NCBI RefSeq assembly: GCF_018595675.2
Contig: NZ_CP092333.1
Span: 210,001-274,000 of the forward strand
Direction: 5' to 3'
Length of the DNA: 64,000 bases
Source of the DNA: Flavihumibacter fluvii
GTDB taxonomy: Bacteria; Bacteroidota; Bacteroidia; Chitinophagales; Chitinophagaceae
Part shown: piece by piece, positions 14,665 through 28,736 of the stretch
Position numbering within the stretch: the first letter of the stretch is position 1
How the letters are laid out: every line of letters starts with the position of its first letter
Position numbers and translations under genes: made by a program
Notes under the pieces: model-generated
Seen by the model: only the letters and a program-made list of their open reading frames with translations
Database searches by the model: none
What the model was told of the DNA's origin: nothing

Positions 14665-15627
14665 TTAATATTTGCGGTCGGTGGTAAAGCGGACCAGTTC
14701 TTCAAGTGCCTTCCTGCTTTCGCTTTCGGGGAATTCGTGTAAAATAGCCAGGGCTTCATCCCGGTAACGGTTCATCTTATCGGCTGCGTATTCGATGCCA
14801 CCGGCGGCATTAACAGCAGCGATCACTTCCTTCACCTTTTTGGTATTCCTGCTATCGTTTTTAATCGTATTGATGATTTTTCGCCGGGTGGCCGAATCGG
14901 CCTTACTGAGCGTATAGATTAATGGTAAGGTAAGTTTTTTCTCCTTGATATCATTGCCTGTAGGCTTTCCTACATCGGCCGCACCATAATCGAAGAGGTC
15001 ATCCTTGATCTGGAAGGCAATGCCCACTTTTTCACCAAAATTGCGCATCTGTTCGGCTTGGGTTTCGCTGGAAATTGCCGAAAAAGCCCCGGCAGCGCAG
15101 GCTGAAGCGAGGAGGGAAGCGGTTTTATTACTGATAATCTCGAAATAGACCGATTCATCAAGGTTGAGAGTCCTGGATTTCTCAATTTGCAGTAATTCAC
15201 CTTCACTCATCCGCCTTACCGCCTCGGAAAGTAGCTGGAGGATCCTGAAATCATTATTGTCGAGGGACAGCAGAAGCCCTTTTGCCAGCAGGTAATCTCC
15301 GATCAGCACCGAAACCTTGGTCTTCCAGAGGGCATAGGTCGAGAAAAAGCCCCGCCTTTCCATGGATTCGTCCACCACATCATCATGAACCAGGGTTGCC
15401 GTATGCAGTAATTCCACCAAAGAAGCAGCCCTGTAGGTACTTTCTGTGATCCCGCCGCACAATTTAGCTGTTAACAGCACAAACATGGGCCTTAGCTGTT
15501 TTCCCTTTCTTTTTACAATGAAGCGGGTAATCCGGTCCAGCATCGGGACCTGGCTTTTTACGGCATCCTTAAATCTGCTTTCGAATATTTCCAGTTCTTC
15601 GGCTATTACTGACGGTGATATACTCAT
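14665..15627 (-). CDS. Polyprenyl diphosphate synthase (trans-isoprenyl, IspB-like)
   Basis: A 320-residue protein from the start MSISPSVIAEEL at 15627; the frame is open 20 codons further upstream, but the family normally begins here. The first aspartate-rich motif HDDVVDE is at about 81-87 and the second, KDDLFDY, at about 208-214; GKxxRP appears as KGKQLRP near 41-47. It condenses isopentenyl diphosphate onto an allylic primer to make the long side chain for menaquinone, the usual Bacteroidota quinone. Chain length cannot be read reliably. It is followed directly by recJ. Confidence 0.92.
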   Translation of the reverse strand: MSISPSVIAEELEIFESRFKDAVKSQVPMLDRITRFIVKRKGKQLRPMFVLLTAKLCGGITESTYRAASLVELLHTATLVHDDVVDESMERRGFFSTYALWKTKVSVLIGDYLLAKGLLLSLDNNDFRILQLLSEAVRRMSEGELLQIEKSRTLNLDESVYFEIISNKTASLLASACAAGAFSAISSETQAEQMRNFGEKVGIAFQIKDDLFDYGAADVGKPTGNDIKEKKLTLPLIYTLSKADSATRRKIINTIKNDSRNTKKVKEVIAAVNAAGGIEYAADKMNRYRDEALAILHEFPESESRKALEELVRFTTDRKY

Positions 15628-22080: not shown

Positions 22081-22842
22081 ATGTTTACCAGCAAACAACA
22101 TTTAACCATTGACCTGGGCGTAGATCCTGCCATTGCTGCATTTTTTGTGGACCGCGCCGTACCCAAAAATAACAGTTACTGGAAAGGGCGTTATCTCTAT
22201 GTTGCGAGGGGGACTGGGTATTTGTTTATCCCGTTATTTTTTGACCTTCAGCGTAGAGCTGGCGTTGACCTGAAACGCTTACTGGATGAGGATTACGTGC
22301 AACTGATGGAGAATATTCTCGACCTGGCGGGTAAATATGAAGGCCACGAGCTGGACTTTGCCACGCATATTCAACAGATAGAGGCGCTCGTGAGTAACCG
22401 AAGTGTTCAGCCGGAATTGCTGGATGACCTTCGTAGGTATTTCAGCCGCCAGCCGCAACAGCCTGTTGGGAATATAGGTACTGAAAATCCGGCCTTAAAC
22501 CGTGGTGATGCGTTATTATATCTCTTAACAGTTTTGCCGGATAGTCATGAAATAATACAGAAAATAATCGGTTACTGGTATTTGTTAGTGCCTTCCTTTT
22601 TGTTGATGGACGATATCATGGACCTTCATGAAGACAAGGAAAAGCAGGAAGAAAACTCATTGGCTCATTTTGGGTATGATGCTGCCGGGGTGAAAAAAGC
22701 CCTTGCGGTACTGGATGTTAGTTTTTCAAAACTTGAAGCCGTCAATCCATTGCTCGGTACATTTTTCCGTTCCAACCTGGATCGCCAGTTAGCGTCACCT
22801 TATTTTAAATTCATATTAAACGAAAAAGATGTCACTGGATAA
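22081..22842 (+). CDS. Unknown protein, distantly like isoprenoid synthases, between scoA and scoB
   Basis: A 253-residue, mostly helical, soluble protein. I do not recognise a named family. Visible features are [21 protein letters not shown] near residues 21-41 (quoted in part as [13 protein letters not shown]), and a striking [19 protein letters not shown] at about 167-185 followed by [15 protein letters not shown]. The DDIMD sequence in an all-helical setting resembles the aspartate-rich motif of trans-prenyl synthases (DDxxD), but a second such motif is not evident. It starts 17 bases after scoA and overlaps scoB by 14 bases, so it is co-translated with the CoA-transferase. Function unknown. 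Confidence 0.75.
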
Positions 22843-23485
22843 GTATGGCATTGCTAAAAGGATAGCCCGGGAATTGCAGGATGGCATGTATGTGAACCTG
22901 GGGATTGGGATTCCGACCCTGGTTGCCAATTATATTCCGGCAGGCATGTTTATCATGCTGCAAAGTGAAAACGGGATGCTGGGTATGGGGCCGTATCCGC
23001 TGGAAGCAGGCATTGATGCCGACCTTATCAATGCCGGTAAAGAAACGGTCACTGTTTTACCTGGTGGGGCATTCTTTGACAGTTCTGAAAGCTTTGGAAT
23101 GATCCGGGCTGGTAAAGTGGACCTGACGGTTTTGGGAGCTATGGAAGTGAGCGACGGCGGCGATATAGCCAACTGGAAGATTCCGGGTAAAATGGTGAAG
23201 GGGATGGGCGGGGCGATGGACCTGGTAGCAAGTGCCCGCAATATCATAGTCGCCATGATGCATACCAACCCTAAGGGCGAGTCCAAATTGTTGCCGGCCT
23301 GTACCTTGCCCCTTACAGGAGTGGGCTGTGTGCGTAAAGTGGTCACTGAGCTGGCGGTACTGGATATCACACCAGGAGGATTCCGGCTAATTGAGCGGGC
23401 ACCAGGTGTAACAGTGGAGGAGATCAGGCAAAAAACAGCAGGAAGGCTGGTGGTTGAAGGCGATATTCCTGAAATGTCGCTTTAG
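22829..23485 (+). CDS. scoB: 3-oxoacid CoA-transferase subunit B
   Basis: A 218-residue protein of the CoA-transferase beta subunit family. The catalytic glutamate is Glu47 in QSENGMLG, which forms the glutamyl-CoA intermediate. [13 protein letters not shown] near 25 and the [13 protein letters not shown]-like segment (here [13 protein letters not shown]) near 140 are typical. It works as a complex with ScoA. The start overlaps the preceding unknown gene by 14 bases, and its stop overlaps the tail of the convergent response regulator gene by 4 bases. Confidence 0.94.
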
Positions 23486-24132
23486 TCGATCAGGTTATTT
23501 TTTACGGCGAAGAATACGAGTCCGGCCGTGTTTTTTGTACCAAATTTCTCCATCAGACGGTCTTTAATCGCTTCCACCGTGCGTGGGCTTACATCCATTT
23601 TCTGGGCAATTTCCTGGGCGGTAAATTCCATACAGATGTATTTGATCACGTCTTTTTCCCGTTCATTCAGGGTGATTTCGCTACTGAGGCTGGGAATGGT
23701 TTTCTGTTTTGAATGCGATTTTTTAAGCAGGATCCGGTTGACGAAATTATTGAGGTAATAGCCTTTTTCAGCCACATCCATGATAGCCCGGCGGATTTCC
23801 GAGGGGTCGGCACTTTTTAGAAGGTAACCATTTGCACCTATTTCCATCAGGTGGCTCACAAATCTCTCATCCTCAAACATGGTGAGGATCACAATATGGA
23901 TGGTCGGGTATTGCTTGGCGATCTGTTTGGTAGTTTCAATGCCGTCTTTCTGTGGCATCCTGAGGTCCATCAGGATAACATCCGGCTCGGATTTTCCCAG
24001 GCCATCGATCAGTTCCTGGCCGTTTTCTGCTTCCTGTACAAATTTGATATTGGTGAAAGGTCGCAACGAAAGGATCACCCCTTTACGGAATATTTTATGG
24101 TCATCAGCGATGGCTACTTTAATCACGTCCAT
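23482..24132 (-). CDS. NarL/LuxR-family response regulator (cassette 1)
   Basis: A 216-residue two-domain regulator. The receiver domain has the acidic pocket ADDH at 9-12, the phosphoacceptor Asp56 in LMDLRMP, and the conserved LTMFED and LLKSADP segments. The C-terminal LuxR-type helix-turn-helix (about 150-216) includes [12 protein letters not shown] and [22 protein letters not shown] (quoted in part). It is phosphorylated by the kinase encoded 56 bases upstream, from which it is separated by a hairpin. Base composition is like the neighbouring housekeeping genes. Target genes are unknown. Confidence 0.93.
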
Positions 24133-24160
24133 GGGATATTGCAGTTAGCGCGTAAATTTA

Positions 24161-24183
24161 ACACTTCCGAACGTAGGAAGTGT
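24161..24183 (-). promoter_or_regulatory. Hairpin between kinase and regulator genes of cassette 1
   Basis: ACACTTCC/GGAAGTGT form a perfect 8-bp stem with a 7-base loop, starting 6 bases after the kinase stop. No strict T run follows on the minus strand (TAAATTTACG), so it could be a weak attenuator or an mRNA-processing/stability element that sets the kinase to regulator ratio. Confidence 0.55.
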
Positions 24184-24188
24184 ATCAA

Positions 24189-25016
24189 TTATTGGGCTTC
24201 TTCTCGGTTTAATTCGATGGTTACTTTATAATAGGTTTGGGAGGGGTCTTTTTCAAAGAATATACGTCCTTGCAGCACTTTCAGCCGGCTTTGGATATTC
24301 TTCAGGCCCAGGCCCGCCGAGCTCTTGGTGAGGCGTTCAAAATCGGCCTGGGTCATGCCCTTGCCATCGTGGTGCATCCTTATGTAGAATTTATTGCCGT
24401 TGGTATTTTGGGTCAGGTGGATGAAACTGGCGTTACTGTGTTTGAGGATATTATTGATCAGTTCCTGGATGACACGAAAAACGATCAATTCGTTATCGGT
24501 GGGAAGGCGTTCCTTGTAATCGTGGAATCTTGAGCTGGCATTCAGGTTGCCAGACCCGCTGATTTTCTGGAAAGTATCATTCACTGCCGATTCAAGTCCG
24601 AAGTTCTTAAGGGTCGGCGGCATCAGGCTGTGGGAGATATTCCGGATCAGCTGGATGGTATCGTCGATGATCTGTTTAGCGTTATATATGCTCTGCAGCT
24701 GGGTGGTTTTATCCATATTCACCAGGTTCTCATTCAGGTAAAGTCTGGCTGTTGCCAGCAATGGACCGGCATCGTCATGGAGATCAGCCGCGATTCGCTG
24801 ACGCTCCTCTTCCTGGAGTTTTATAGATGCATTCAACAACATTTTCTGCTGCTCATATTCCAGTTTTTGCAGTGTCATTTGGTATTTAATGACCTTGCGT
24901 TGGTGAAAGATGATGAAAATGATAAGGCTAATTGTCAAAGCGAGCATTCCTATTGTACCAAAGAATAAGACTACGGAAACATTTGCTGGGTTATTATTAA
25001 CCTGTAAAAATAGCAT
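24189..25016 (-). CDS. Sensor-less histidine kinase, HisKA_3 type (cassette 1)
   Basis: A 275-residue kinase. There is one membrane helix at about 14-38 with only a 13-residue N-terminal tail outside, then a coiled linker (YQMTLQKLEYEQQKMLLNASIKLQEEE, quoted in part as QKLEYEQQKMLLNA). The HisKA_3 phosphoacceptor is His80 in RIAADLHDDAGP. The HATPase domain follows, with QELINNILKHSNAS (N box), HDGKGM (G1) and SAGLGLKNIQSRL (G2). No periplasmic, PAS, GAF or other sensory domain is present. The gene lies 23 bases after the seven-helix membrane protein gene, which may supply the sensing part (inference). Confidence 0.92.
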   Translation of the reverse strand: MLFLQVNNNPANVSVVLFFGTIGMLALTISLIIFIIFHQRKVIKYQMTLQKLEYEQQKMLLNASIKLQEEERQRIAADLHDDAGPLLATARLYLNENLVNMDKTTQLQSIYNAKQIIDDTIQLIRNISHSLMPPTLKNFGLESAVNDTFQKISGSGNLNASSRFHDYKERLPTDNELIVFRVIQELINNILKHSNASFIHLTQNTNGNKFYIRMHHDGKGMTQADFERLTKSSAGLGLKNIQSRLKVLQGRIFFEKDPSQTYYKVTIELNREEAQ

Positions 25017-25039
25017 TTGGGTTAGGAAGTTAGCTTTGA

Positions 25040-25723
25040 TTAAAAATTGTCAAAATTGATAATTGAATTGTTTTCGAGTGACCTTTTTTTTTGATAGTAG
25101 CCAACTGCAAAAAAAATATTCTTTAGAATGTTACAAACAAGATTGATTTTCCAAAATAAGTTAAACTCGGCTTTTGTAAGGCTCTTAGCTTGAAGGAATA
25201 AGAAAAAGGTACCAGAAAAGTAAATCATCAAACCAACAACAATCCAAAATTCAAAAGTCCCATATATAAATGTGGTATCTGGTGTTTGAATTTTTTCATA
25301 TAATAAAAAGATAGAATATATAATTAGGACTAAGCTACTAAATGATGACGCAATACTATCAAATTGAGTACTATCTAAATTGAGAAAACTTCGATACAGA
25401 GTTATTATTGCTACAATAATAAAAATAGAAGAAAATAAATAAGCAAATTTCTTAAAAGCCTCTGAATTAAAAGTGTTTACAAAAAATATAAGAATTAATA
25501 AATGTTCAAATATTGTAAAAAAACTATTGAAGAAAAAAACACCATTACCAAGAGAATAATAAGAAATAATAGTTGTAGCTAAGTCATTAAATAAGGAGTA
25601 TAGCAAGTATATAAAAATAACCCTTGACCGTATCAATTTTTCTTTTGAATTAGAAAAAATCGATACAATCAAGGGTATTAAGACAGAAAATATACTAAAA
25701 TATACTAATAATTTCTCACCCAT
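25040..25723 (-). CDS. Seven-helix membrane protein, putative detached sensor (cassette 1)
   Basis: A 227-residue, very hydrophobic protein with seven predicted membrane segments (about 5-23, 33-56, 62-85, 90-113, 121-144, 157-178 and 187-212) and short loops. No enzyme motif is visible. A topology twin lies at 28071-28736, and both share a FWIVVGLM/FWIIMGIM-type sixth helix. The gene is strongly AT-rich, unlike the kinase gene 23 bases downstream. A palindrome covers its -7 box and start codon. The gene order (membrane protein, kinase, regulator) suggests it senses a signal for the kinase; this is inference. Confidence 0.75.
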   Translation of the reverse strand: MGEKLLVYFSIFSVLIPLIVSIFSNSKEKLIRSRVIFIYLLYSLFNDLATTIISYYSLGNGVFFFNSFFTIFEHLLILIFFVNTFNSEAFKKFAYLFSSIFIIVAIITLYRSFLNLDSTQFDSIASSFSSLVLIIYSIFLLYEKIQTPDTTFIYGTFEFWIVVGLMIYFSGTFFLFLQAKSLTKAEFNLFWKINLVCNILKNIFFAVGYYQKKRSLENNSIINFDNF

Positions 25724-25747
25724 TTGAGATTGATAATCTCAAATATA
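25722..25747 (-). promoter_or_regulatory. Palindrome covering -7 box and start codon of the cassette 1 membrane protein gene
   Basis: ATTTGAGATT/AATCTCAAAT are perfect 10-bp arms around a 3-base centre (25722-25744). The minus-strand -7 box TATATTTG (25747-25740) overlaps one arm and the ATG (25723) overlaps the other. It can act as an operator or, in the mRNA, hide the start codon. Confidence 0.6.
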
Positions 25748-25776
25748 ATAAAGAGAATTAAAGAATTATAATTAAA

Positions 25777-26166
25777 TCAATCAGACCAACTCCAAGTAGT
25801 TGTGGAAGTTGAGGTTTTAACACCACCACCGCCGTTATTTGAACGATCTGCTACAATACCTTGCTTATTGGATAACTTACCTTCGTTATCAATGATTTTA
25901 TATTCATTAATAATCTGATTGAAGGAATCTATTCCTACATAAACCAATGTCTTTTCTCCAATTTCATTTAATCCCATATAATATCGTATACCGACACAAC
26001 CTGGTTGAGCCAGAATCTCGTCAATTATATTTCTACCAATGTAGAATACATTAGTATCATTAGGATACTTATCCTGGAAGTCTTTAACCATTTTAGCACC
26101 CAACTCTTGGCCAATTTCTTCGCCAATTGTTTCCAGGGAGGGGTTTAAAATTTCTGATTTAATCAT
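25777..26166 (-). CDS. Small protein with GCVGIRYY motif and Gly4-Ser/Thr/Trp tail
   Basis: A 129-residue soluble protein with no signal peptide or membrane helix. The N-terminal 35 residues are helical and charged. The centre has ILAQPGCVGIRYYMGLNEIGEKTLVYVGID (quoted in part: QPGCVGIRYYMGLNE at 54-68). After a polar stretch come four glycines at 112-115 and the tail VKTSTSTTTWSWSD. I do not recognise a characterised family, though similar PGCVGIR-type small proteins are, to my knowledge, frequent in Chitinophagaceae. The shape (core, Gly4, short polar/aromatic tail) resembles a precursor-like layout. It lies between the two signalling cassettes and is AT-rich. Confidence 0.7.
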   Translation of the reverse strand: MIKSEILNPSLETIGEEIGQELGAKMVKDFQDKYPNDTNVFYIGRNIIDEILAQPGCVGIRYYMGLNEIGEKTLVYVGIDSFNQIINEYKIIDNEGKLSNKQGIVADRSNNGGGGVKTSTSTTTWSWSD

Positions 26167-26629
26167 AACCTTAAGTTTTAGTAAGAAGAGGGTTGTTTTT
26201 CAATGTGTGAATAACCCGCAAAAAAAAAAATCCGACAATGGGGTATTTCTTGCTTTTTTGTTCTAAATTGGCTGTAATTCAATGTGGTAGTGGATTTACG
26301 ATATATTATATAGTATAGTTACTATGTAAAAAAAAGTAAAAATACGCACTAAAATTAGTAAAAACCACATTAATAAATTAGGAATTTTACGATTTCCGGG
26401 TTATAGAATTTAATAACAAAGGCATTTGGGTAGAATAAAGGAGGAGTATGATTAAAATTTTATTTCATAAATGAAGGATGTGGCATAGTATTTTCCACTT
26501 ATTCTTTGCGCTATTGATGTATAGTAAAATTCATAAATACGAAAAAAATCGAGTGGAAATACGATATTGTACGCATTTACGTTAATTATCAACCAAAACT
26601 GAACATCCTAATAAAAACTACCCAAACCT
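26167..26629. other. 463-bp AT-rich intergenic control region with a cluster of TACG motifs
   Basis: This region separates two divergent genes, the GCVGIRYY protein (minus) and a response regulator (plus). It holds a run of 11 A (26220-26230) and seven TACG motifs, all on the plus strand (at about 26297, 26343, 26388, 26538, 26560, 26570, 26578), with no CGTA found. An inverted pair TTTCCACT/AGTGGAAA lies at 26492-26499 and 26552-26559. A degenerate -7 box TATTCTTTG is at 26500-26508. No gene is evident here. Confidence 0.55.
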
Positions 26630-27289
26630 ATGAGTGCCGATTTAACGATTAAGGTTAGCCTAGCAGATGATCATAAGATCTTCCGTGATGGCATTAAAAT
26701 GGCCCTGAAAGGCAAGGATTATCTTAAAATCTTATGGGAAGCTGAGGATGGCAGGGACCTGATGCATAAGATGCAGTTGAAAAAACCAGATGTTTTGTTA
26801 ATGGATATCCGGATGCCTGAAGTGGATGGGGTTAATGCGATTGGAATGCTCAGGAAAGAATATGATGATGTCCGGATTATAGTGCTCACTATGTATGATG
26901 ACCAGGAGATGATTACTAAAATGATGGAGATGGGTGCAAATGCCTATTTGACTAAAACATCCGATCCAGAAGAGATTTACCAGGCTATCCTGGCTTGCAT
27001 GAACGAAGATTTTTATTTTAATGACCTGGTAAATAAGGCGGTTCTTTCCAAACTGCAAACAAAAAAAGCTGTCCGCCAGTATTATCCCAACCCGGTAAAA
27101 TTTTCAGAAAAGGAGACAAGAATTTTAAAGCTTTTGGCAGAAGATAAAACTACCGAAGAAATTTCTAAAGAAGTTTTTTTAAGCCCTCGTACAATTGAAA
27201 CGATCCGTCAAAATATGAAGTCAAAAGTTGGTGCAAAAACAATTGCAGGCTTAATAATGTATGGGATGAGGAATAAAATAATTGATTAA
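26630..27289 (+). CDS. NarL/LuxR-family response regulator (cassette 2)
   Basis: A 219-residue regulator closely resembling the one at 23482. The receiver domain carries LADDH at 11-15, phosphoacceptor Asp59 in LLMDIRMPEVDG, LTMYDD and LTKTSDP. The C-terminal LuxR helix-turn-helix includes FSEKETRILKLLAED and SPRTIETIRQNM. Unlike cassette 1, the gene runs opposite to its kinase: the two stops overlap by 4 bases (convergent). Its own promoter must lie in the TACG-rich region upstream. Codon composition is intermediate between AT-rich island and flanking genome. Confidence 0.92.
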   Translation: MSADLTIKVSLADDHKIFRDGIKMALKGKDYLKILWEAEDGRDLMHKMQLKKPDVLLMDIRMPEVDGVNAIGMLRKEYDDVRIIVLTMYDDQEMITKMMEMGANAYLTKTSDPEEIYQAILACMNEDFYFNDLVNKAVLSKLQTKKAVRQYYPNPVKFSEKETRILKLLAEDKTTEEISKEVFLSPRTIETIRQNMKSKVGAKTIAGLIMYGMRNKIID

Positions 27290-28098
27290 TGTAAATTGCA
27301 ATCTTCATTATGAATAGGAATTGCAATTGTTATTTTTGTCCCTTTGCCTATGTCTGAACTTATTGTTAGATTTCCGTTAATTGAAGAAACCCTTTTCTGA
27401 ATGTTTTTCAACCCCTGAGAAAATTTTTTATTATTTAATATTTCAATATTAAAACCCACCCCATCGTCATTGATTTCGAAGTGCAATATTTTTTTAATTA
27501 ATTTTACTTTTAAAAATATATTTTTTGACTGCCCGTGAATTATAGAATTCCTAAATGCTTCTTGCGATATTCTAAAAATTATTAGTTGATATTCTGGGTT
27601 AATATTATCTATTTCATCATTATACTCAAAGTCAATAATAGTTGGTTTAATAGAATTTATCCTTTTTATTTCCTCCAATAAAATTTTTGTCAAACCAATG
27701 TTTTTAATAAGATCACTATTTAAAGTCTTTGAAATAGACGTTAGGCTTTTAATAGCCTCTCCAATAAACTGACTACTATTATTAATTTTTGATTTCAAGT
27801 CACTTATGTTTCCATAATCAACAGAATTTAAATTTAATTTGGCTAAAGTTAAGACTTGATTTATATTATCATGTATCTCTCGTCCAATTAACTCAAATGA
27901 CTCTTCCTGGACTATAATTCTAGTATTTAATATTTCTTTTTCTTTTTCAAGGTTTAATATTTTAATTCCATTTTGGAATTCAATTTGCTTACGATTATAA
28001 AGACACAGCAATTTATATATGAATACAATAAGAAGTATTAAAATTATAATACTTGAAAATATTGATAGAATTAGAATAATTGTGTTTCTTTCTCCCAT
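27286..28098 (-). CDS. Sensor-less histidine kinase, HisKA_3 type (cassette 2)
   Basis: A 270-residue kinase with one N-terminal membrane helix (about 6-31) preceded by only five residues. The phosphoacceptor is His76 in LIGREIHDNINQ. HATPase motifs are ISQEAFRNSIIHGQS (N box), NDDGVGFN (G1) and SQGLKNIQKRV (G2). There is no sensory domain. It is very AT-rich: 27541-27600 has only 16 G/C of 60. The start codon lies inside the 3' end of the seven-helix membrane protein gene (28-base overlap), and its stop overlaps the regulator gene. This tight coupling argues that membrane protein and kinase act together. Confidence 0.92.
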   Translation of the reverse strand: MGERNTIILILSIFSSIIILILLIVFIYKLLCLYNRKQIEFQNGIKILNLEKEKEILNTRIIVQEESFELIGREIHDNINQVLTLAKLNLNSVDYGNISDLKSKINNSSQFIGEAIKSLTSISKTLNSDLIKNIGLTKILLEEIKRINSIKPTIIDFEYNDEIDNINPEYQLIIFRISQEAFRNSIIHGQSKNIFLKVKLIKKILHFEINDDGVGFNIEILNNKKFSQGLKNIQKRVSSINGNLTISSDIGKGTKITIAIPIHNEDCNLH

Positions 28099-28736
28099 TT
28101 AAATGCTTTTATAAAAAATAAGTGCATAATTATATTCAATGCTAAGAATACGTAAGTTAAAGTAAGCGAGAAGTTTGTATGCTCTTGAGTATTTCCTGCG
28201 ATGTCAAGTATGAATGCTCCTAAGCACGAAGGTAAACTTGTTGTATAACAGAACATTATTCCCATAATAATCCAGAAGTGTTTGGAATTTGGTATATCAA
28301 TTATTGTGCTATCAGAAAAAAGCCATATTAAATATTTTATGCAAAATAATGATACAAATATTCCAGATATGACCTGCAAAATGGATGATATTTCAAATGA
28401 ATATTTTAATGATATTAAGATCGAAGTAATACTGACAAAAATCGAATAATTCCAATTGTGCTTTTTATTTATGACTGAATCAATATATGCTGGTAATAAT
28501 ATTATTTCTGAACACATGAAAATAATATTCACATAGTTCCTAATTCGGAAATCCACATCGATGAAAATTAACGTAAAACCAATACTACTTGAAATAAAAT
28601 CGATAATGCAAAATGAATAAATATATTTTATTTCATTTTTGAAGGAATTACTATCTCTAAATAGTTTTACACCTGTAATGACATTAAACATGCATACTGA
28701 AAGTTGTAATACGACAAGAGTATATACAATAGGCAT
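28071..28736 (-). CDS. Seven-helix membrane protein, putative detached sensor (cassette 2)
   Basis: A 221-residue hydrophobic protein with seven predicted helices (about 3-26, 36-59, 67-89, 94-113, 117-140, 152-177 and 189-214). Helix arrangement and length match the 25040 protein, although sequence identity is low. No catalytic motif is visible. It is strongly AT-rich. It overlaps the kinase gene by 28 bases, so both are translated from one message. The C-terminus (KAFKWEKETQLF) should face the cytoplasm if the N-terminus is outside. Function is unknown; a sensing subunit for the kinase is inferred from the duplicated arrangement. Confidence 0.75.
   Translation of the reverse strand: MPIVYTLVVLQLSVCMFNVITGVKLFRDSNSFKNEIKYIYSFCIIDFISSSIGFTLIFIDVDFRIRNYVNIIFMCSEIILLPAYIDSVINKKHNWNYSIFVSITSILISLKYSFEISSILQVISGIFVSLFCIKYLIWLFSDSTIIDIPNSKHFWIIMGIMFCYTTSLPSCLGAFILDIAGNTQEHTNFSLTLTYVFLALNIIMHLFFIKAFKWEKETQLF

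Follow-up and report, generated by a model that had tools for sequence, protein, structure and literature searches.

What does a seven-helix membrane protein detect when the histidine kinase encoded beside it has no sensor domain of its own? The question is raised by a locus of Flavihumibacter fluvii (Chitinophagaceae) within a 64,000-nucleotide stretch of contig NZ_CP092333.1 (positions 210,001 to 274,000), which we call the window and from whose first letter all positions are counted. An initial annotation had described two cassettes here, each made of a seven-helix protein, a sensor-less kinase and a NarL/LuxR-type regulator, and had read them as split sensors in which the membrane protein detects a signal and the kinase relays it. 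That reading is probably right in kind, and the pairing is regular; the parts, however, are not exactly three. A small gene that we call SP1 stands directly upstream of the first seven-helix gene, 7TM1, and most likely makes a short peptide ending in tryptophan (Trp) that the seven-helix protein senses. With rather more confidence than doubt, we regard the locus as a ComX/ComP-like peptide-sensing two-component system with a split receptor.

The cassette and its precursor-like gene

On the reverse strand, SP1 (25777-26166, 129 residues), the proposed signal-peptide precursor or carrier, is followed by 7TM1 (25040-25723, 227 residues), the proposed receptor, by HK1 (24189-25016, 275 residues), a HisKA_3 histidine kinase with a single membrane helix, and by the NarL/LuxR-type response regulator RR1 (23482-24132, 216 residues). 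A second such regulator, RR2 (26630-27289, forward strand, 219 residues), diverges from SP1. The same arrangement recurs in relatives. Among 244 genomes of the family searched with both proteins, 127 have 7TM1 homologues and 82 have SP1 homologues (E<=0.01); in 51 the SP1 match is strong (E<=1e-14). A scan of the genome collection with an SP1 alignment, from which 80 of 118 confirmed relatives were used, gave 79 distinct loci, mostly from Chitinophagaceae, with three labelled Williamsia, Gammaproteobacteria and Beijerinckiaceae; they carry 83 SP gene calls (81 distinct proteins, one gene being counted twice in the overlapping loci L144 and L163). The usual order is RR2 (divergent), SP1, 7TM1, HK1, RR1: a 7TM gene follows 73 of the 83 SP calls, HK1 69 and RR1 64, and a divergent RR2 accompanies 65. 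SP1, which the initial annotation left out, is thus a member of the cassette. The ten SP calls without a 7TM gene comprise one at a contig end (L121) and nine spread across five Chitinophaga loci; contig ends also account for some of the other missing partners.

SP1 consists of a conserved domain reaching to about residue 108 (GIVADR), a linker rich in Pro, Thr and Gly, and a short aromatic end. Its hypervariable tail (residues 109-129; 25780-25842, reverse strand), the proposed ligand, closes with TTTWSWSD and so has Trp at the third and fifth positions from the C-terminus. Relatives of the same genus, or named Flavihumibacter, end in DWWS, DWWA, SDWW, LDWW or EWTTLL in place of WSWSD, and Trp occurs within the last 12 residues of 77 of the 83 SP proteins, where its frequency in the rest of these proteins predicts 2.6%. 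SP1 matches no Pfam family at E<=1, and inspection of its sequence reveals no evident signal sequence. Some other SP-domain proteins (L188, L189, L191, L203 and L204) appear by eye to begin with membrane, signal or lipoprotein-like segments, and several of these carry a CPPxC-type tail. Open frames of 293-295 residues with two tandem SP-like matches occur at G071:C8:17268-17918 and G150:C16:5998-6645.

Judged from their sequences, precursor and receptor are fast-evolving and co-diverging, and the kinase and regulators conserved. Median identity to the window protein is 90% for RR2, the most conserved part, 81% for both HK1 and RR1, 47% for SP1 and 30% for 7TM1 (33-36 sequences per family, window included), the first three values being somewhat raised because their inclusion minima were higher (300-350 bits, against 40-60 bits for SP1 and 7TM1). 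Distances were compared over the 54 of 83 rows that have all four parts called and a 7TM protein of 170-260 residues. The median pairwise distance is 0.23 for RR1, 0.25 for HK1, 0.56 for the SP core and 0.71 for the 7TM protein; the last ten SP residues reach 0.97 on a separate, BLOSUM-based scale. With HK1 and RR1 controlled, distance between SP tails follows distance between 7TM proteins (partial Mantel r 0.20, p 0.0005); controlling the SP core as well weakens the relation (r 0.11, p 0.025). Tail distance does not track HK1 distance once 7TM and RR1 are controlled (r 0.04, p 0.31).

Micro-ORFs in the place of SP1

Many relatives have, where SP1 would stand, only a very short open reading frame (ORF). 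We examined the surroundings of 7TM1 matches in 80 regions. The latter 40 were picked largely for a strong SP that was missing or not yet covered, so that shares among the 80 are not prevalences. HK1 is present in 73 and lacking in seven; of the 73, 43 have an SP gene and 30 have none. By a rule framed after the first examples had been seen (14-32 codons, Trp in the last six residues and a TTA[CA] element just before the ATG), the SP slot holds a Trp micro-ORF in 18 of the 30 SP-less loci. The reverse strand of these loci gives one such case in 30, and 200 resamplings average 1.0 and never exceed 4. These 18 plausible micro-ORFs, of which MKKVVLVKRRIDWDDISIFVWED and MTKKVFRAVPPIEWPTTPSWWEF are examples, have 17-25 codons, and one peptide is common to two genomes; an extra 14-codon match in L091 is spurious. 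Five micro-peptides gave no Pfam match at E<=10. Such replacement implies that the Trp-ended peptide is the recurring element and that the carrier domain is dispensable.

The sequence ahead of the micro-ORFs points the same way. An exact search of 394 genomes for the 16-mer AACGTTACTGTTATGA gave 24 matches in 18 genomes, and a reversed control pattern gave one. Thirteen of the matches precede a 7TM-HK1 operon, with Trp third or fourth from the ORF end in every case; among the other 11, Trp lies near the ORF end in one (Fisher p 5.6e-6). Seven of the 13 operon-linked loci had supplied the pattern itself, and the six that are independent of it all agree on the Trp position (p 0.0006). In the window, the divergent region between SP1 and RR2 (26167-26629) carries a AAAACTTA-type element that abuts the start of SP1 and resembles the one ahead of the micro-ORFs.

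This element does not serve solely as a translation signal of the micro-ORF: in 10 of the 24 exact matches, AACGTTACTGTT lies about 420-520 bp before another LuxR-type regulator gene (L334, L336, L342, L344, L346 and L351-L355), which makes a promoter or operator more likely. At these distal sites a terminator-like hairpin precedes AACGTTACTGTT and an inverted repeat follows it (AAAGTTGATTG..CAATCAACTTTC in several), so the site may encode a small RNA or a structured leader, and it may also be another promoter belonging to the regulon. In L341, L347, L348 and L349, a palindrome, CAAATCGATTTG, stands about 25-37 bp before the micro-ORF start codon and is a candidate operator of RR1 or RR2. A Trp-codon attenuation leader, also considered for the micro-ORFs, seems unlikely: the Trp codons are at the ORF end and vary in number, and the same slot holds a 129-residue protein in sister lineages.

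Seven-helix proteins, kinases and a candidate modifier

The 7TM1 model (pLDDT 92.5, from a 48-sequence alignment) consists of seven membrane-length elements, each a long helix or a helix pair, which we assign as membrane-spanning, and its C-terminal helix is 41 residues long (184-224). In Foldseek, the best 50 of 547 matches at E<=10 are G-protein-coupled receptors (GPCRs) and rhodopsins, headed by the yeast pheromone receptor Ste2 (E 0.008), with a thermophilic rhodopsin at TM-score 0.63; with no match at E<=0.001, the likeness is one of fold class, not homology. No enzyme or transporter stands among these 50, an outcome that would have spoken against a sensor. Loop charges mostly favour an N-out, C-in orientation, one predicted inner loop disagreeing, and on the topology that we assigned in this way the outer helix halves of the family are more variable than the inner ones (2.41 versus 1.98 bits, p 0.0008), the sixth helix showing the opposite. 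No Cys or His is invariant or nearly so in the 48 sequences. Profile comparison shows 7TM2 (28071-28736, reverse strand, 221 residues), the window's second seven-helix protein, to be a homologue of 7TM1 (hhalign probability 96.7, E 3.6e-10). Neither protein matches anything in Pfam or NCBIfam at E<=1.

Pairing with a kinase extends across the class. Among 295 genomes of the Bacteroidia, 56 have matches to the 7TM profile at E<=1e-6; we took the best 30 loci, of which one is the window, and counted the other 29. In all 29 the 7TM match is followed downstream by an HK-like ORF, with a second 7TM in between at two of them, so the seven-helix proteins do not occur mainly without kinases, and regular adjacency to sensor-less kinases, as the initial annotation expected, is what we find. 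Directly upstream, 12 of the 29 have an SP-profile protein (two of them weak) and six more a protein with a CPxxC tail (L310, L313, L316, L320, L326 and L330), making 18 with an SP- or tail-bearing partner. Of the other 11, L321, L322 and L325 have degenerate tails, L327 and L329 have tandem 7TM genes, L315 reaches a contig end, L303 has a micro-ORF without Trp, and in L304, L307, L312 and L314 no partner was recognised. CPPxC and a Trp end occur together in six Chitinophagaceae SPs (L093, L272, L292, L297, L298 and L299), and these intermediates suggest a series running from the CPxxC tail through CPxxC with a Trp tail and the Trp tail to the bare micro-ORF. One class-wide SP (L308:1151-1462) has a sub-threshold match to the effector-associated domain EAD10 of Pfam (16.7 bits, cut-off 24.1), and at G402:C1:2383461-2386101 an SP-domain match is followed by three consecutive 7TM matches and then a kinase.

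HK1 exceeds Pfam cut-offs for HisKA_3 and HATPase_c only, and both regulators have Response_reg and GerE. What we take to be the H-boxes (HK1 DLHDDAG, HK2 EIHDNIN) and receiver-aspartate motifs (RR1 LMDLRMP, RR2 LMDIRMP) look intact. Within HK1 the HisKA_3 region is 95% and the membrane helix 74% conserved; the first 14 residues, at 43%, are the most variable segment. The second kinase, HK2 (27286-28098, reverse strand, 270 residues), likewise lacks a sensor domain and has HATPase_c with a sub-threshold HisKA_3 match (19.4 bits, cut-off 24).

The positions, strands and lengths first given for the six regulator, kinase and seven-helix genes are all correct, as is the 28-base overlap of 7TM2 and HK2. 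The division into two like halves does not hold: the halves are unequal, an SP1 or a micro-ORF in its slot being the usual extra part, and RR2, which had been assigned to the second cassette, goes with the first. A divergent RR2 is present in 68 of the 73 HK1 loci, and 47 of those 68 have no HK2-like kinase in the region covered, so RR2 is part of the SP1 module and cannot as a general rule be the regulator of 7TM2-HK2. An HK2-like kinase has its own regulator in several relatives. In the window and in L062-L064, of the same genus, no regulator other than RR2 adjoins the 7TM2-HK2 pair, which may share RR2 in this genus; the pair is missing from the region covered in L078, also of the window's genus. 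No precursor gene adjoins 7TM2-HK2 in the window, and the 89 bases between the pair and the next gene contain, by eye, a terminator-like hairpin.

A further gene, PQ (22081-22842, forward strand, 253 residues), sits between two CoA-transferase genes and encodes a helical protein that we propose as a ComQ-like modifier of SP1. It is homologous to a gene lying divergently beside SP genes in Chitinophaga, is found near SP in 23 of the 79 named loci, and shares DDxxDxxxD with all of 21 PQ sequences. Its likeness to isoprenoid synthases is weak: profile search of the PDB places tetraprenyl-beta-curcumene synthase best (E 0.024), with a trans-hexaprenyltransferase (E 0.15) ranked below two designed proteins, and the model (pLDDT 91.8) first matches MoeN5, a geranyltransferase and CrtE with weak E-values, isoprenoid enzymes filling 35 of the best 50 Foldseek matches, none at E<=0.001. 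PQ cannot be taken as a proven prenyltransferase, since the profile comparison aligns no more than 13 columns, at DDIMD, with p 0.049 (p 0.11-0.45 for five unrelated controls). Its distribution follows that of SP: in the 244 family genomes, PQ at E<1e-20 is present in 31, and a strong SP is found in 28 of these and in 23 of the 213 without PQ (Fisher p 1.4e-19, phylogeny uncorrected), and of the three exceptions, G148 has a 7TM near a contig end and G053 and G139 have weak partial SP matches. A ComQ-like role, as judged from sequences and models, is plausible. A universal need for PQ is excluded by the SP genomes that lack it (23 of 51) and by its absence from all 18 genomes with rule-passing micro-ORFs.

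Three further observations concern the surroundings of PQ and RR1. A polyprenyl synthase (PF00348), one of two in the genome, lies at 14815-15546 (reverse strand), about 7 kb from PQ. Often RR1 is followed by a many-helix protein of about 225 residues (L068, L069, L073, L075, L079 and others), by eye mainly in genomes without PQ, with exceptions such as L072 and L077. In the Chitinophaga loci L140, L144, L153 and L155, SP genes with up to three nearby copies stand beside PQ (a PQ fragment in L140) with no HK1 operon in the region, and these may possibly be orphan signals.

Known systems and rival readings

The nearest parallel is ComQXPA of Bacillus (Firmicutes), as described in two papers (PMC4008528, PMC5331326). 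Both systems have a peptide with Trp near its C-terminal end, which for ComX means the last 5-10 residues, a position that the window tail shares, a HisKA_3 kinase behind a multi-helix membrane receptor, a NarL/LuxR-type regulator, variable peptide and receptor set against conserved kinase and regulator, and possibly an isoprenoid enzyme (here PQ, by prediction). In most ComX pheromones the modified Trp is reported to be third or fourth from the end (PMC5331326), as in the 13 operon-linked ORFs here; the 2014 comQXPA census reports no locus outside Firmicutes (PMC4008528). Several defining features nevertheless fail, so that the system would work like ComX/ComP/ComA and yet be no member of ComQXPA. 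ComP joins its sensor and HisKA_3/HATPase domains in one polypeptide, whereas 7TM1 and HK1 are separate ORFs; ComX belongs to PF05952 and has 52-73 residues, whereas the precursor here has no ComX Pfam match and is either a 129-residue protein or a micro-ORF product of 15-26 residues. There are two regulators here, and PQ stands on the opposite strand or away from the locus altogether, unlike the Q-X-P-A order of four adjacent genes on one strand. ComQ has a conserved first aspartate-rich motif (FARM, DDxxD) where PQ has its invariant DDxxDxxxD, and given the weak isoprenoid matches PQ is only a putative prenyltransferase.

Two other systems bear comparison. In UhpABC, too, a HisKA_3 kinase and a NarL-type regulator receive their signal from a membrane protein with a gene of its own, and HK1 and HK2 match the UhpB model at 72 and 70 bits, far under its cut-off of 408. 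UhpC, however, resembles a transporter and senses sugar phosphate, and UhpB carries a membrane domain itself, whereas here a seven-helix bundle comes with a small precursor-like partner. Loci of Agr-type autoinducing-peptide systems likewise comprise a small precursor, a multi-helix membrane protein, a kinase and a regulator, the precursor and receptor being the variable parts; they differ in their AgrB-like processing protein, a cysteine peptidase, none being recognised here (no Pfam match and no invariant Cys or His in the 7TM proteins), and the present regulators are LuxR-type, not LytTR, and the kinase is HisKA_3.

For binding, export, modification, phosphotransfer and targets, we infer the following scheme. 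The signal would be the last few, Trp-holding residues of SP1, itself a small protein, and the 108-residue domain would be a carrier, a bare micro-ORF sufficing in many relatives. The tail peptide, whether released or presented on its carrier, would bind 7TM1, whose outer half varies most, and the state of 7TM1 would pass to HK1, probably through the long C-terminal helix of the former and the membrane helix of the latter. HK1 would then phosphorylate RR1 and probably RR2, which would act on their targets. PQ may act on the Trp of SP1 in the way that ComQ modifies ComX, and 7TM2-HK2 would form a second receptor-kinase pair that may feed RR2.

A number of findings sit less comfortably with this peptide-sensing scheme. 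Six of the 83 SPs lack Trp in their last 12 residues, and 12 of the 30 SP-less loci have no micro-ORF by the rule; of these 12, four have a Trp-ended ORF by eye (L265, L266, L291 and L284, the last cut by the contig start), two hold a micro-ORF without Trp in its last six residues (L082, L274), and in six nothing was found in the slot (L263, L264, L271, L273, L285 and L287, the contig end being near in L264). None of the 12 class-wide SP-profile partners has a Trp tail, and eight of them end in an exact CPxxC tail, conserved and not variable, which fits a pherotype less well. The SP tail tracks RR1 too after controls (r 0.15, p 0.0055), so its correlation with 7TM may partly reflect shared descent. 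The variable N-terminus of HK1 leaves room for the kinase itself contacting something variable. Of the 14 7TM matches in four Chitinophaga genomes with SP and PQ, none is beside an HK1-grade kinase. PQ is wanting in many strong-SP genomes, the comparison of its A3 profile with a local polyprenyl synthase alignment is not significant (hhalign probability 1.1%), and neither its fold search nor that of 7TM1 reached E<=0.001.

The chief alternative, to which we give a real though clearly minor chance, is that SP1 or the micro-peptide is retained by the cell, where its tail would dock on 7TM1 from within the cytosol or membrane, so that it acts as a soluble sensor or adaptor instead of being secreted as a signal. 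The lack of an evident signal sequence would suit such a partner, as would the CPxxC tail that class-wide partners often keep, as a fixed docking motif would be kept, and co-divergence with 7TM is stronger for the SP core (r 0.48) than for the tail. A cytosolic partner is harder to reconcile with the greater variability of the outer helix halves, on the topology assigned here, with a dispensable carrier domain, and with the membrane- or signal-like N-terminal segments seen by eye in some SP-domain homologues elsewhere. More doubtful is a plain split sensor, in which 7TM1 detects an unrelated chemical, HK1 relays it and SP1 is an accessory or a regulated product. In its favour, 7TM and kinase adjoin across the class, and at 11 of the 29 loci the gene directly upstream was not recognised as one for an SP or a CPxxC-tail protein; against it stand the SP1 or rule-passing Trp micro-ORF upstream of 7TM1 in 61 of 73 HK1 loci (43 SP, 18 micro-ORF) and the co-divergence of SP with 7TM.

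We think it very improbable that 7TM1 is an AgrB-like processing or export protein of the peptide and that HK1 itself senses. The position of 7TM1 between precursor and kinase, a variability such as a processing partner may have, and the variable 14 N-terminal residues of HK1 are compatible with that arrangement, but the 48 sequences offer no near-invariant Cys or His, the model resembles GPCRs and rhodopsins, the membrane helix of HK1 is conserved, and 7TM2-HK2 exists without an adjoining precursor gene.

Peptide signals are usually attributed to Gram-positive bacteria (PMC5388746), and our literature search, of partial coverage and thus no proof of absence, found no description of such a system in Bacteroidota. 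That it was overlooked would be explained by micro-ORFs presumably too short for ordinary gene calling together with SP, 7TM and PQ proteins that, when scanned, matched no Pfam or NCBIfam family over cut-off. Going beyond this locus, we offer as a tentative proposal, one that we hold less firmly than not, that in Bacteroidia ribosomal peptides make up a large family of signals, that their carriers, whether SP domains or micro-ORFs, are replaceable, that receptors of rhodopsin/GPCR fold read them and feed separate HisKA_3 kinases, and that the Chitinophagaceae have species-specific Trp 'pherotypes', their Trp being modified, in genomes that have PQ, by an isoprenoid enzyme of a new kind. If true, the phylum would have its first family of peptide quorum-sensing systems, and bacteria would have a counterpart of peptide-GPCR signalling, with a GPCR-like bundle signalling to a histidine kinase. 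A peptide-to-7TM-to-kinase system across Bacteroidia would amount to a cell-cell language for the phylum, and it would supply testable ligand-receptor pairs by the dozen.

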